Assembly: GCA_937920635.1 (NCBI GenBank)
Contig: CAKZUE010000025.1
Span: forward strand, 1-49,842
Origin: an uncultured Bryobacteraceae bacterium
GTDB lineage: Bacteria > Acidobacteriota > Terriglobia > Bryobacterales > Bryobacteraceae
Length of the DNA stretch: 49,842 bases
Direction of reading: 5' to 3'
This document shows positions 39,833 to 44,650 of the stretch, one piece after another. Both the position numbers and the translations under genes were made by a program. The first letter of the stretch is position 1, and every line of letters begins with the position of its first letter. The notes beneath the pieces are model-generated. The model was given only the letters and a program-made list of their open reading frames with translations. It made no database searches and had not been told where the DNA came from.

Positions 39833-41026
39833 CTATAACTCGCCCTTCGCCAGCGCGCTCTTCTCCGCACCGTCGAACGGACGCGACAGCCACCGCCGCG
39901 CCAGCTTCGCCTCATACGAAGACGGCGCCGTCTTTACTGCGTTCCGGTAAGCCCCCAGCGCCTCCTGCCGCTGTCCCATCAGATCCAGGCACTGCCCCAG
40001 CCGCAGCCAAGCCCCCACGGCTGAATTGGGATCCAACCGCTCGGCTGCCGCCGCCGCGCGCCGCAGATGCTGCACCGCCTCCTCCGGCTCGTCATACCAG
40101 AACAACAGGTTCCCGCGCGCGAATTCGATCCTCTCGAACGGGAGGCTTGCAAATCCCGGCATCCCGCTCCGCTTCAGCTCCTCGATCCGGTCCAGCGCCC
40201 GCAGCGCATCCTCCTTGCGGCCCAGATCCGCGTACATCTGCGACAGCTCAAACCACAACAGGAAGTTTCGCGGGTATTTCTCCAGCAGTTCGAGGATGAT
40301 CGGCACCGCATCCTGCGGCCTCCTCTCCCGCCGCGCCACCACGCCCAGCAGAATCCTGGCGTCCACACGGTTCCACTTGCCCTTCTCCGCCACGATCCGC
40401 ACCGTGCGGATGCCCCGCTCGCGGTCCCCGCGGAATCCCACCAGAAATCCCAGCGTCCGGTAATACCACGGCAGCGAGCCGACGATGTAATCGTGCACGC
40501 CCTGCAACATCAGCGCATCGATGTTCTGAGGGTCAAGTTCCGCCACGCGGTTGTGCAGCTTGCGGGCATCGGTGATGTCGCGCAGCGCGTCCATCCACGC
40601 GCGCCGCACCAGAAAGTTGTAAGTGCCGCGAAAGCCCAGCGCCACCCCGCGCGCGTACATCGCATCCGCGTCCCGCGGGTTCTTTTCCAGAGCCGCCCCA
40701 GTCAGCCGCAGCGTCTCTCCGACCGACGCCGCAAACAACTTCTGCTCCTCCTCCGTCGGCTCCATCTTTGGCCGCCGCAGGAACGGATTGCCCCCGGTGA
40801 CCAGTTCCGTCTCCAGCGCCCCCGCGCGGAACATCATCTGGAACAACACCGCCTGCGCCAGGTGGTTGTGGCGGTGGGGATCCGCGGGCGCCGCCTCGAT
40901 CGCCTTCCGGAACTTCGCGATCGCCTGCGGGTACTCGAGATTGTAGAAGTGATCAAACCCCCGCTCCACCGCCGGGTCCCCATAATATTGAGCCAGCAGC
41001 AGCCACGCCGCCGCCAGGACCGTCAT
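39833..41026 (-). CDS. Secreted TPR-repeat protein
   Basis: ATG 41026 overlaps the queG stop by 4 bp (ATGA) and opens a short signal peptide (MTVLAAAWLLLAQ). The 397 residues contain several TPR units (NLEYPQAIAKFRKAIEAAP, LGRKEDALRALDRI, MGQRQEALGAYRNAVKTAP). The central part (about 130-230) is an unusual helical region with LVRRAWMDALRDI and SLPWYYRTLGFLVGFRGDRERGI. It may function with QueG only by position; no shared pathway is apparent. Confidence 0.72.
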   Translation of the reverse strand: MTVLAAAWLLLAQYYGDPAVERGFDHFYNLEYPQAIAKFRKAIEAAPADPHRHNHLAQAVLFQMMFRAGALETELVTGGNPFLRRPKMEPTEEEQKLFAASVGETLRLTGAALEKNPRDADAMYARGVALGFRGTYNFLVRRAWMDALRDITDARKLHNRVAELDPQNIDALMLQGVHDYIVGSLPWYYRTLGFLVGFRGDRERGIRTVRIVAEKGKWNRVDARILLGVVARRERRPQDAVPIILELLEKYPRNFLLWFELSQMYADLGRKEDALRALDRIEELKRSGMPGFASLPFERIEFARGNLLFWYDEPEEAVQHLRRAAAAAERLDPNSAVGAWLRLGQCLDLMGQRQEALGAYRNAVKTAPSSYEAKLARRWLSRPFDGAEKSALAKGEL

Positions 41027-42057
41027 CGCCCTGCCTCCAGCCGCCGCAGCGCCCAACGTGCATGCTCTTTCACCGCTTCATCCTCCATCTCCGCCAGCTT
41101 CCCGAGCACCGGCAGATACCGTACGTCCCCCGAATTGCCCATCGCCGTCGCCGCGTTTCTCAGCAGCCCCGAGTACCGCGCCCGCCACAACGCCGTCCGC
41201 CGGAACTGCTCCCGGAACCCTTCCTCCGTCAGCCCCGCCAGCTCCGCCAGATCCGGGTCCGGATACAAGGGTTGAAACTCGGGCCTCGCCGTCGCCGGCG
41301 CCCGCCGGTTCCACGGGCACACCTCCTGGCAGATGTCGCACCCGAACACCAGATGCCCGCTGCCTTCCCGCGCCCGCTCCGGCAGCGCCCCCCGCTGCTC
41401 GATCGTCCACGTCGAAATGCACAGCCGCGCATCCAGCCGGTACCGCCCTTCTCCCGCCGCAATCAGCGCGCCCGTCGGGCACGCATCCACGCATTTGCGG
41501 CACGTCCCGCAGCGGTCCGGCGGCGGAGTGTCCCGCTCCATCTCCAGCGAGGTCAGCACCTCCCCCAGAAAAAACCACGATCCCATCGGTTGATGGATCA
41601 GGCACGTGTTGCGTCCGATCCACCCCAGCCCCGCCTCCCGCGCCAGTGACCGCTCCAGCAGCGGCGCCGTGTCCACGCAGATCCGGTATTCGAACCTCCC
41701 CACCTCCTCCATCACCTCCCGCACGGCGCCCTCCAGCATCGCCCGCACCACATCGTGATAATCAGCCGCTCCCCAGGCGTAGCGCGAAACGGAATGACGT
41801 GCCGGTCCCGCCGTGTGATACAGCAGCCCCACGCACACCACCGAGCGAGCCCCAGGCAGCAGCAGCCGGGGGTCGGCCCGCATCCCTGCTCTCCGGTCCG
41901 TCAGGTAGCCGAGCGGCCCCGCAAGCCCGTCTTCAACCCATTGTTGATACAAGGGAAAGTCTGCCACCCCGGCGGCCGGCGCGACGCCCGCCAGTTGAAA
42001 CCCGGCCCGCCGGGCGGCACTGAGAAACGCCTCCCTGTTTCGCTCCCCTGCGGTCAA
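41023..42057 (-). CDS. queG: Epoxyqueuosine reductase QueG
   Basis: The 344-residue cobalamin- and iron-sulfur-dependent reductase carries out the last step of queuosine synthesis in tRNA. The catalytic aspartate is Asp129 in CVDTAPLLERSLA. Two ferredoxin-like clusters are visible: CGTCRKCVDACP (183-194) and CDICQEVCPWN (240-250), with Cys213 as extra ligand. The C-terminal residues form a HEAT-like extension found in long QueG. No other queuosine gene lies in the window. Confidence 0.95.
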   Translation of the reverse strand: MTAGERNREAFLSAARRAGFQLAGVAPAAGVADFPLYQQWVEDGLAGPLGYLTDRRAGMRADPRLLLPGARSVVCVGLLYHTAGPARHSVSRYAWGAADYHDVVRAMLEGAVREVMEEVGRFEYRICVDTAPLLERSLAREAGLGWIGRNTCLIHQPMGSWFFLGEVLTSLEMERDTPPPDRCGTCRKCVDACPTGALIAAGEGRYRLDARLCISTWTIEQRGALPERAREGSGHLVFGCDICQEVCPWNRRAPATARPEFQPLYPDPDLAELAGLTEEGFREQFRRTALWRARYSGLLRNAATAMGNSGDVRYLPVLGKLAEMEDEAVKEHARWALRRLEAGR

Positions 42058-42203
42058 AGACTCTCCCAGCTCATGCTATCGCGATTTCGGCGGCCCCCGT
42101 TAAGCCCCCTGTTTTCCCCGTCGAACCGGGCTCCGGCGCAGTTCGATGGTTCATTCTGGTCAGCCGCAAGGCTTTGCCTACAATAGGAAGGGAAGTGAAG
42201 TGT

Positions 42204-42300: not shown

Positions 42301-44403
42301 ATGCCCAAGCCGATCAAGTATGTAGAGAAGGCCGTGACGCTGGCGGCCAAGGCCATTTGGCCCGTCTTCGACACGCTCAACTCCATCAAGCCGAACCCCA
42401 GCTTCACGCCGAAATGGTCGGACAAGCCGCTGCTGAAGTCATGGGAGAAGATGAAACCGCCACTGGGCTGGCCGCGCCAGACCGACTCCCTCTGCCCCAA
42501 GTGCATCCCCGAGATCCGCAAGGAGATCCTGGACGGCAAGAAGGACGTCAGCATCCTGGTCAACGAGCGCCCGGGCGAGATCAAGGCCCAGATCATCGAG
42601 CGCGACGGCAAGATCCTCATGGTCAAGGATTGTCCCATCCACGGCCATTTCGAGGATGTGATGTCGATCGACCCCGCCTTCTTCCGCCACCTGGAGGAAG
42701 TTTTCCCCGGACGCGACATCCGCGCCCACAACGATGAGGACCTGCACCGCCACGGCTCCTCCACCATCACCCACGGCCGCGGCTCGGTGCTCACCATCGA
42801 CCTCACCAACCGCTGCAACATGATGTGCGACCCGTGCTTCATGGACGCCAACCAGGTCGGCTTCGTCCATGAACTCACCTGGGAAGACATCAAGACCATG
42901 CTCGACAACGCGCTGAAGATCAAGCCGCGGCGCCAGATGTCGGTGCAGTTCTCCGGCGGCGAGCCCACCCTGTCGCCGTACTTCCTCGATGCCGTCCGTT
43001 ATTGCCGAAAGGTCGGCTACAACTCCGTCCAGGCAGCCACCAACGGCATCGAGTTCGCCAAGTCGCCGGAGTTCGCCCGCGCTGCTGCGGAAGCTGGTCT
43101 CCGCTATGCCTACCTCCAGTTCGACGGTGTCGGCAATGCGGCCAATTCCCACCGCGCCGTCGGCAACCTGTTCGACGTCAAGCTCCGCGCCATCGAGAAC
43201 CTGTACAACGCCGGCGTCGACATCGTCCCCGTCATCACCATCATCAACGGGATTAACAACGAGCAGGTCGGCCGCGTCATTCAGTTCGCTCTCGACAACC
43301 CCAAGAAGATCAGCTTCCTCAGCTTCCAGCCCGTCTCCTTCACCGGACGCGACGAGGGCATCAGCGACGAGCGCCGCATGGCCCAGCGCTACACCCTCAG
43401 CCACCTGGCTCACGACGTCAAGAACCAGACCGGCCTTGGCGAGCCCGTCCGCGACTGGTACCCGATCTCCTTCATGTCCACTTTCACTGACTGGGCCGAC
43501 CTCGTCCACGGACCCAGCGCCCAGTGGGGCCAGTTGAGCTGCGGCTGCCACCCCAACTGCGGCGTCGGCATGGCCGTCATGGTGGACAAGGAGACCAAGG
43601 AGTCCGTCCCGGTCACCAAGTTCCTCAACGGCGACCGTCTCGCCCGCGATGTGGCCCGCGTCAACGACGCCGCCCGCGGCAAGTTCCTCTCCGTCGTCGG
43701 CATGGCGCTCGCCTTGATGCGCAATTACGATCCCTTCCAGGCGCCCACGCACTTCAAGCTCTCCGACCTGCTCAAGAAGTTCGACAAGACCTTCGGCGCC
43801 ACCGGGCGCGACTACGGCAAGGTCAGCGGCGACCGCACCATCCGCGACATCGAAAAGCGCCGCGCCGACCGCTGGAACTTCCTGTTCATCGCCGGCATGT
43901 GGTTCCAGGATCTGTTCAACTACGACTTCCGCCGCACCGAGCAGTGCATCATCCCTTACGCCACCCAGGAGGGCGAGATCAGCTTCTGCGCCTACAACAC
44001 CGGCGTCGGCTGGCGCAATATCGTCGAGAAGATGCACATGACCGCCACCCTCACCCGCTGGTACGAAGAGCATGGGCGGCATGAGATCTTCGCCGGCAAC
44101 AAGAGCGTCAACCTCAATTCCACCGAGCACCACCTCGTCCTGCGCGACGAGATCGTCACCAAAGAGCGCCAGACCGATCTCGACAAGCTCGGCATCGCCA
44201 AGACCGCCCGCGAAGAGAAAATCCGCGAGCGCGACCTCAAGCTGCGCATGCAGCAGCAGGCCGAGCACGATCGGATGATGGCCCTCTATCGCAAGCACGT
44301 CCTCAAGGAGCCCGACACCGGTCTCGTCCAGATCGGCGGCATCGCCCCCGCTACCCGTGCTCAGGAGAAACAGGAAGAGACCGCCGGCGCCCTCGGCGAC
44401 TGA
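42301..44403 (+). CDS. Radical SAM protein of the Tes/GDGT-MAS (COG1964) type
   Basis: The 700-residue protein has the hallmarks of the MJ0619/Tes family. A rubredoxin-like N-terminal knot has Cys65-x2-Cys68 and CPIHG (Cys111). The radical SAM cluster motif is Cys172-x3-Cys176-x2-Cys179, with the SAM-binding FSGGEPT at 218-224. Further cysteines that could bind auxiliary clusters lie at 414, 416 and 420 (CGCHPNC), 549 (CIIPY) and 563 (FCAYN). A charged coiled-coil tail (about 615-700) is added. Characterised relatives join lipid tails into membrane-spanning ethers in archaea, or methylate pterins. Since Solibacter-type bacteria make branched GDGT lipids, a lipid role is attractive but unproved. 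A strong terminator follows. Confidence 0.82.
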   Translation: MPKPIKYVEKAVTLAAKAIWPVFDTLNSIKPNPSFTPKWSDKPLLKSWEKMKPPLGWPRQTDSLCPKCIPEIRKEILDGKKDVSILVNERPGEIKAQIIERDGKILMVKDCPIHGHFEDVMSIDPAFFRHLEEVFPGRDIRAHNDEDLHRHGSSTITHGRGSVLTIDLTNRCNMMCDPCFMDANQVGFVHELTWEDIKTMLDNALKIKPRRQMSVQFSGGEPTLSPYFLDAVRYCRKVGYNSVQAATNGIEFAKSPEFARAAAEAGLRYAYLQFDGVGNAANSHRAVGNLFDVKLRAIENLYNAGVDIVPVITIINGINNEQVGRVIQFALDNPKKISFLSFQPVSFTGRDEGISDERRMAQRYTLSHLAHDVKNQTGLGEPVRDWYPISFMSTFTDWADLVHGPSAQWGQLSCGCHPNCGVGMAVMVDKETKESVPVTKFLNGDRLARDVARVNDAARGKFLSVVGMALALMRNYDPFQAPTHFKLSDLLKKFDKTFGATGRDYGKVSGDRTIRDIEKRRADRWNFLFIAGMWFQDLFNYDFRRTEQCIIPYATQEGEISFCAYNTGVGWRNIVEKMHMTATLTRWYEEHGRHEIFAGNKSVNLNSTEHHLVLRDEIVTKERQTDLDKLGIAKTAREEKIRERDLKLRMQQQAEHDRMMALYRKHVLKEPDTGLVQIGGIAPATRAQEKQEETAGALGD

Positions 44404-44428
44404 TCCGTTCCTATCCCCCAACAACCTC

Positions 44429-44468
44429 GGCGGCTGGCCCCACCCGGGCCAGCCGCCTTTGCTTTATT
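44429..44468 (+). terminator. Terminator after the radical SAM gene
   Basis: A perfect 12-bp stem, GGCGGCTGGCCC and GGGCCAGCCGCC, around a CACCC loop, followed by TTTGCTTTATT. It lies 26 bp after the stop codon and isolates the gene from hsp20. Confidence 0.85.
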
Positions 44469-44621: not shown

Positions 44622-44650
44622 TTGACAGTGTCCTGTGCGTATTGTATAGT
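44622..44650 (+). promoter_or_regulatory. Sigma70 promoter of hsp20
   Basis: Perfect -35 TTGACA (44622-44627), 17-nt spacer, -10 TATAGT (44645-44650). Predicted start of transcription is near 44657, giving a leader of about 36 nt that contains the AAGGAGG ribosome-binding site. Confidence 0.8.

Follow-up and report, generated by a model that had tools for sequence, protein, structure and literature searches.

A radical SAM sub-family beside Tes/GDGT-MAS is a candidate for making the membrane-spanning lipids of Acidobacteriota

INTRODUCTION

Which enzyme joins the acyl chains of Acidobacteriota tail to tail? The question is raised by a gene at positions 42,301 to 44,403 of contig CAKZUE010000025.1 from an uncultured Bryobacteraceae bacterium (assembly GCA_937920635.1; the 49,842-nucleotide stretch that we analysed is called the window). 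Iso-diabolic acid (iso-DA) is regarded as a pair of iso-C15 chains coupled tail to tail, and its enzyme is described as 'still unknown' (Halamka 2022, PMC10087280). Together with branched glycerol dialkyl glycerol tetraethers (brGDGTs), it underlies much-used soil and sediment thermometers, and the acidobacterial coupling enzyme is unproven. An initial annotation of the window described the gene product as a Tes/GDGT-MAS-like radical S-adenosylmethionine (SAM) protein and put it forward for the coupling step. The idea of bacterial Tes homologues as coupling candidates stands, and was already in print: Zeng 2022 (PMC8941075) proposed acidobacterial Tes homologues for brGDGTs, Halamka 2022 (PMC10087280) extended the proposal, and the similarity network of Lloyd 2022 also notes bacterial homologues.

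Judged by its sequence, the gene product is a radical SAM enzyme that belongs to a bacterial sub-family of its own, next to Tes/GDGT-MAS, and we consider it a strong candidate for making the membrane-spanning lipids of these bacteria. What appears to be new is the split of the acidobacterial Tes family into two types and the missing N-terminal cluster of one of them; the proposal that bacterial Tes homologues serve brGDGT synthesis was known. A literature search, with supplementary files outside its scope, returned no paper on two acidobacterial types or on a missing N-terminal cluster, and the supplementary bacterial tree of Zeng 2022 may already show the split.

RESULTS

The gene product is a relative of archaeal Tes/GDGT-MAS

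42301..44403, + strand: Tes-like radical SAM protein, window type (defined below), 700 amino acids (open reading frame; Pfam, NCBIfam and PDB matches; alignment)

The open reading frame (ORF) is real and sited as the initial annotation claimed, starting with ATG. Pfam matches it to Radical_SAM at residues 168-330 (E 8e-19) and to Zn_ribbon_HMPTM at residues 58-122 (E 8e-13). Its top NCBIfam match is the Tes model NF045702, at 317.2 bits under the curated cut-off of 450; TrsS (NF045646) is the second-ranked match, and at 205 bits lies far under its cut-off of 490. The top PDB sequence match is 7tol, which is GDGT-MAS (E 1.4e-61, residues 94-588), followed by MoaA at 2.6e-5. An AlphaFold model, built on a shallow alignment of 45 sequences and used solely for fold matching and not for geometry (mean predicted local distance difference test score, pLDDT, of 69; most cluster regions below 50), has 7tom/7tol as its top fold matches (E 2e-21), and the next entry is at 9e-5. 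Pfam, NCBIfam, sequence and fold matches agree on the proposed kinship, and they indicate that the protein is a relative of archaeal Tes/GDGT-MAS, yet not a standard Tes.

In the genome to which the window belongs, 98.4% complete, this gene is the single strong match to the Tes model (315.7 bits), and the next scores 71. The closest named relatives are Bryobacterales/Bryobacteraceae records, in keeping with the acidobacterial setting assumed from the start; relatives outside Acidobacteriota in the plasmid search amounted to three weak matches at 27-28% identity.

Pfam names the N-terminal domain after HMPTM, which recalls the first label of MJ0619, a radical SAM pterin (methanopterin-type) methylase. 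We regard this function as very improbable here. In Lloyd 2022 the founding assignment is not corroborated and is superseded: MJ0619 is re-identified as GDGT-MAS, with a hydrophobic pocket, and the pterin role is largely refuted for the founding member. The initial annotation had proposed asking whether the protein falls inside a pterin-methylating branch, and that test is moot because MJ0619 is itself GDGT-MAS.

Acidobacteriota carry two types of Tes-family gene

The Tes model was run against 297 phylum genomes, 171 of which had a match at E <= 1e-45. The matches listed, down to about 314 bits, fall into two discrete score groups, with 36 at 472-619 bits (34 genomes, all over the cut-off) and a long series that begins at 350 bits and descends. 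We call the group over the Tes cut-off canonical and the lower group, which includes the window protein, the window type. Identity to MJ0619 in the alignment is 38-47% for canonical proteins and 29-35% for the window type. A quick, unrooted tree was built from 72 rows, without 12 of the canonical and 70 of the 79 named window-type rows. One fully supported branch in it separates the window type from all other rows (50 rows vs 22; Shimodaira-Hasegawa-like approximate likelihood ratio test, SH-aLRT, 100). Because the tree is quick and unrooted and carries long-branch warnings (MJ0619, L034, L035 and L037 among others), it makes no statement on which type is older. Thirteen positions are fixed differently between the types, several of them beside clusters. 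Scores, alignment and tree indicate that Acidobacteriota carry two discrete types of Tes-family gene. A placement as canonical Tes does not hold for the window protein, which falls off the canonical/MJ0619 side of the tree, scores 317 vs 450 bits and lacks the N-terminal cluster ligands.

Several genes in these scans deserve separate mention. Seven phylum genomes (G034, G035, G042, G136, G193, G254 and G260), tallied by hand from the match tables like the counts of genomes with both types, have a Tes-model match at E <= 1e-45 that is neither over the cut-off nor window type; these weaker matches may be fragments or a third group. Genomes of family f21 (L049/L050 in G141, L051/L052 in G204, and others) carry two window-type paralogues, one sharing about 65-70% identity with the window protein and the other about 51-55%; the ligand pattern of the latter in the rows aligned is that of the window type. 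One window-type copy in a metagenome-assembled genome (MAG; L086:7998-10106) is split in two frames of 433 and 269 residues, which is either an assembly error or a broken gene. At L173:4839-8154 (G264) and L174:3635-8375 (G296), in two genomes assigned to Acidobacteriota, canonical Tes has a PcrB/GGGP-synthase-family gene and a UbiA prenyltransferase as immediate neighbours. L174 contains, in addition, a gene of the geranylgeranyl-reductase type whose product carries ferredoxin motifs at its N-terminus. The Tes rows of both loci group with MJ0619 in the tree. These loci look like an archaeal ether-lipid cluster; assembly contamination is possible.

The window type keeps the C-terminal cluster ligands and lacks the N-terminal ones

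Four metal sites are described for GDGT-MAS (Lloyd 2022). Besides the radical SAM cluster, they comprise a rubredoxin-like iron (C9, C12, C33, H36) and two auxiliary clusters, the N-terminal one at the surface (C73, C77, C80 and a His) and the C-terminal one with a labile Met439. We assigned H83 and the C-terminal cysteines C338, C455 and C470 of MJ0619 by reading its sequence. The ligand alignment comprised MJ0619, 33 canonical rows (30 distinct genes, three entered twice) and 120 window-type rows (79 named loci, 40 from other genomes, and the window itself, L001); fragments were excluded if they covered no more than about 560 residues of the query in the window type, or 400 in the canonical group. 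The sites in the window are as follows.

42493..42645, + strand: rubredoxin-like C65-x2-C68 ... C111-x2-H114, residues 65-115 (Pfam Zn_ribbon_HMPTM, alignment)
42745..42771, + strand: HxHG stretch lacking Cys where Tes has its N-terminal auxiliary cluster, residues 149-157 (alignment)
42814..42837, + strand: CX3CX2C radical SAM [4Fe-4S] site, residues 172-179 (invariant)
43540..43560, + strand: CxCx3C, residues 414-420, with C420 equivalent to MJ0619 C338 (alignment)
43897..43989, + strand: C-terminal auxiliary cluster and conserved Tyr, residues 533-563 (alignment)

The CX3CX2C site (C172/C176/C179), the N-terminal CxxC (C65/C68), CPxHG (C111-G115) and the further cysteine groups (414/416/420, 549 and 563, plus 235) were found where the initial annotation had put them. 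All except C235 are invariant across the alignment of 45 sequences, whose other members are 77-89% identical to the query, so they are not there by chance. The description 'extra cysteines' is half right: C414 and C416 are additional compared with MJ0619, but the residues that bind the N-terminal auxiliary cluster in Tes are absent.

Active-site parts of GDGT-MAS are kept throughout the window type. Its radical SAM cysteines and the SAM-loop residues Q268 and R275 are each present in 120/120 rows. M533, C549, Y553 and C563 correspond to Met439, C455, Tyr459 and C470 of MJ0619; with C420, they too are kept in all 120 rows, and these four are also present in 33/33 canonical rows. The rubredoxin-like Cys and His residues are kept wherever rows cover them (119 or 120 of 120 window-type and 32 of 33 canonical rows, the rest being gaps). 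The types differ around these sites: S271 is present in 120/120 window-type rows, yet in just 4/33 canonical rows, C414 in 120/120 vs 3/33, and the rubredoxin loop spans 42 residues in 116/120 window-type rows vs 20 in 32/33 canonical rows.

The N-terminal auxiliary cluster separates the types completely, all four ligands being present in 33/33 canonical rows vs 0/120 window-type rows. Between C111 and C172, 118 of the 120 window-type rows have no Cys at all. A check for the auxiliary cluster ligands of Tes therefore divides, with the N-terminal ones absent and the C-terminal ones kept. In place of the missing ligands stands the HxHG stretch (window 42745-42756), with H149 in 119/120 and H151 in 120/120 window-type rows; it is possibly another metal site.

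In sum, the window type shares with GDGT-MAS/Tes (MJ0619, 7TOL/7TOM, NF045702) the radical SAM core, the rubredoxin-like Cys/His, the C-terminal ligands with Met, the Tyr and the fold; it differs in its lower identity and score, the four missing ligands, the longer rubredoxin loop and a longer tail. Canonical acidobacterial Tes comes from the same phylum, sometimes from the adjoining gene, and shares the radical SAM and C-terminal ligands, but it retains the four N-terminal ones.

The two termini

42307..42381, + strand: predicted amphipathic N-terminal helix, residues 3-27, possible membrane anchor (model pLDDT 86-94 by blocks of ten; shuffles)
44206..44298, + strand: charged C-terminal helix of 31 residues, 636-666 (helix in model)

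The window protein has 64 residues ahead of its first Cys vs 8 in GDGT-MAS, and within them lies an amphipathic helix. Its hydrophobic moment is 0.53, and none of 2000 shuffles was as high. The property is widespread in the window type, since in 96 of the 117 rows tested at most 5 of 500 shuffles match the helix amphipathicity. Four of the 33 canonical rows have at least 22 residues aligned there, and none is amphipathic by the same mark, though their starts are uncertain. Such a helix would hold the enzyme at the membrane.

At the other end, the 'coiled-coil tail' of the initial annotation is not borne out: the heptad pattern of residues 636-666 is no better than that of shuffles (2000/2000 were as good). 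The tail is nevertheless long, with 65-154 residues past the last Cys in the window type vs 20-56 in canonical proteins.

The window type is a core gene of the class

We next counted both types in 299 genomes of the class, the 297 of the phylum and 121 of the window's family, with a window-type threshold of E <= 1e-140 in the class and phylum scans. The window type is a core gene of the class, present in 276/299 genomes (231/240 of good quality) at identities of 65-96% among the matches listed, and occurs in 143/297 phylum genomes (122/258 of good quality). Canonical Tes is found in 24/299 class genomes (19/240 of good quality) and, over the cut-off, in 34/297 phylum genomes, 12 of which also have the window type. 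In the window's family, 110/121 genomes have either type and 34 have canonical Tes over the cut-off; 27 of these 34 show a second, lower match in the window-type range, some of them partial. Eleven named genomes comprise ten with one sub-cut-off match each and one with both types, and five of those ten are strains not labelled MAG (Acidipila rosea DSM 103428, Granulicella aggregans M8UP14, ZG23-2, KBS 83 and EB88). Three genomes that we identified as Chloracidobacterium through the FMO protein (3/5 tested) have three Tes-model matches each, one in each qualifying as window type at 65-68%.

Replacement of the window type by canonical Tes was considered and dropped, as 3 of the 23 class genomes lacking the window type and 21 of the 276 carriers have canonical Tes (Fisher P = 0.41); one of the three, G625, was counted as lacking it because it is not among the window-type matches listed.

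These distributions can be set against the reported lipids. A survey of 46 strains in 7 subdivisions found iso-DA in subdivisions 1, 3, 4 and 6 (as cited in PMC13274423). Its share of the fatty acids is 11.8-30.4% across the six strains tabulated in an Edaphobacter study (PMC11354219), 30.7% in strain SBC82 and 29.8% in strain CCO287 (PMC6252331), and the genus Chloracidobacterium is reported to make it as well (PMC12816986). A class-wide gene fits a class-wide lipid, and canonical Tes, with its 24 of 299 genomes, does not. The breadth of the window type matches synthesis of iso-DA, a major lipid of these bacteria, better than that of brGDGTs specifically.

E. aggregans makes both iso-DA and brGDGT (PMC13274423) and has one Tes homologue, 32% identical to MA_1486; the corresponding values are 42% for the homologue from Koribacter and 40% for that from Solibacter named by Zeng 2022 (PMC8941075). 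By these identities the E. aggregans homologue would be of the window type, the values for it and for our types referring to two different archaeal references. The statement of the initial annotation that Solibacter-type bacteria make iso-DA fails for S. usitatus itself, in which Halamka 2022 (PMC10087280) reports two Tes homologues and no detectable iso-DA.

The window type is linked to canonical Tes

In at least six genomes the window type precedes canonical Tes on one strand, no more than about 11 kb away. Four of them belong to family f2 (G265, G073, G121 and G576); the others, G352 and G371, belong to f1, the family of the window, and in these the two genes are directly adjacent. The f1 pairs adjoin a QueG gene 54% identical to the window's QueG, as does the window gene, and QueG also stands beside the genes in L159, L160 and L172 (51-54% identical). 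In L172, canonical Tes is beside QueG in a genome without a window-type match. QueG marks a site shared with relatives, at which canonical Tes occurs either after the window type or in its absence. Different genes surround the f2 loci; G265 and G576 have in common, downstream of canonical Tes, a small DUF4440-type gene and a MutY-like HhH-GPD gene.

By hand count, about 52 genomes across the three samples hold both types, for which we estimate a chance expectation of about 0.2 linked pairs (22 kb of 5 Mb each). Six linked pairs is a minimum, because the coordinates of some window-type genes are not listed. The pairs are not independent, but they represent at least two genomic contexts. The location of the window type beside canonical Tes counts in favour of a lipid-coupling function.

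Co-occurrence and linkage could also mean two steps of one pathway, in which the window type carries out a different radical reaction on lipid tails (C5/C6 methylation, desaturation or cross-linking) and canonical Tes or Mss does the coupling. The 13 positions fixed differently between the types would suit such a division of labour. We consider it unlikely: the window type retains every C-terminal cluster ligand and the Tyr, C5/C6 methylation is known from only some strains (PMC13274423), and canonical Tes is too rare for a class-wide lipid, so that something else must couple there.

No widely shared neighbour was found among 105 window-type loci of at least 9 kb, the window included; the commonest, the QueG group, occurs in 19. 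For this reason metK, two genes downstream of the window gene, is not read as a meaningful neighbour.

The absence of widely shared neighbours would also suit a Tes-fold protein with a non-lipid role, iso-DA being made by an acidobacterial Mss homologue. By description Mss resembles our candidate, with a proposed tail-to-tail fatty acyl coupling and a Tes-like catalytic architecture in models (PMC13274423); Thermotoga maritima is absent from the controls with an NF045702 match at E <= 1e-45. The S. usitatus result (PMC10087280) and the Mss homologues in 11/97 acidobacterial Black Sea MAGs (PMC11868695) also speak for this explanation. Eleven of 97 MAGs from one sea is, however, less than the lipid's reach, though those MAGs may belong to other subdivisions; the linkage to canonical Tes also speaks against a non-lipid role, and the N-terminal amphipathic helix suits a membrane substrate. 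We therefore hold a non-lipid role to be rather improbable.

Immediate surroundings of the gene

42157..42184, + strand: weak sigma-70-like promoter match (9/12 matches; not evidence of function)
44429..44457, + strand: intrinsic-terminator-like hairpin (12 pairs, 11 of them G-C; 25 bases past the stop codon)
41023..42057, - strand: QueG, divergent upstream neighbour (Pfam QueG_DUF1730)

The gene had been described as alone between its own leader and terminator. The hairpin and the weak promoter match fit that description; the leader is merely an untranslated upstream stretch, as the window holds no Rfam family at threshold, and no tRNA either. Promoter-like sites around the gene number 3 vs a shuffle mean of 0.3, and terminator-like sites in the region 2 vs 2.3, a count that alone is not significant. 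The downstream neighbour is an Hsp20 gene. Because a strong promoter-like site (11/12, 44622-44650) lies within the 5' end of the listed Hsp20 ORF, this gene probably starts further downstream than listed and has its own promoter. An antisense ORF at 42439-44424 was set aside as a high-GC artefact.

On another contig of the window's own genome (C52; L178:1111-3687) lies an ORF with BcrAD_BadFG and DUF2229 domains, an architecture that we take to be of the kind found in PlsA/Ger. Ester-to-ether conversion, and with it ether formation, may therefore be possible in this organism.

DISCUSSION

By analogy with GDGT-MAS, the enzyme probably couples two iso-C15 chains of bacterial phospholipids through their methyl ends, which would yield iso-DA and thereby membrane-spanning lipids; both substrate and bond are inferred. 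In the proposed mechanism, the N-terminal amphipathic helix would hold the enzyme at the membrane, and the radical SAM cluster would generate a 5'-deoxyadenosyl radical that abstracts a hydrogen from the terminal carbon of one tail. The carbon radical formed in this way would be held at the C-terminal [4Fe-4S] cluster, whose ligands would be C420, C549, C563 and, as a labile fourth, M533, until a second radical, on the other tail, allows the C-C bond to form. The retention of active-site parts of GDGT-MAS counts for such a coupling reaction.

Several observations weigh against this proposal. The protein falls below the Tes cut-off and lacks the N-terminal auxiliary cluster ligands, and the SAM-contact residue R210 of MJ0619 is R in 9/120 window-type rows, where K, A, Q and H are mostly found. 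The GDGT-MAS variant M439A stayed active (Lloyd 2022), so conservation of the Met says little, and that of the cysteines and Tyr counts for more. The gene is absent from 23/299 class genomes, nine of them of good quality, and S. usitatus has homologues without detectable iso-DA. The lipid data could be linked to the genomes only broadly for subdivisions 1 and 3 and, within subdivision 4, for a single genus. PMC11868695 describes the function of bacterial Tes homologues as unconfirmed, and such lipids in Thermotogota and Bacillota are credited to a different enzyme, Mss.

Tentatively, we extend the proposal to the whole sub-family, which might be the iso-DA synthase of Acidobacteriota: Tes-like, without the surface [4Fe-4S] cluster (perhaps suiting aerobic cells) and with a membrane-anchoring helix, while canonical Tes, in genomes that have it beside this gene, would do the ether-lipid (brGDGT) step.

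With two gene types that differ in cluster ligands and in spread, surveys that pool any bacterial 'Tes homologue' may mix two enzymes. If the proposed division is true, the brGDGT climate proxies would rest on two distinguishable genes.

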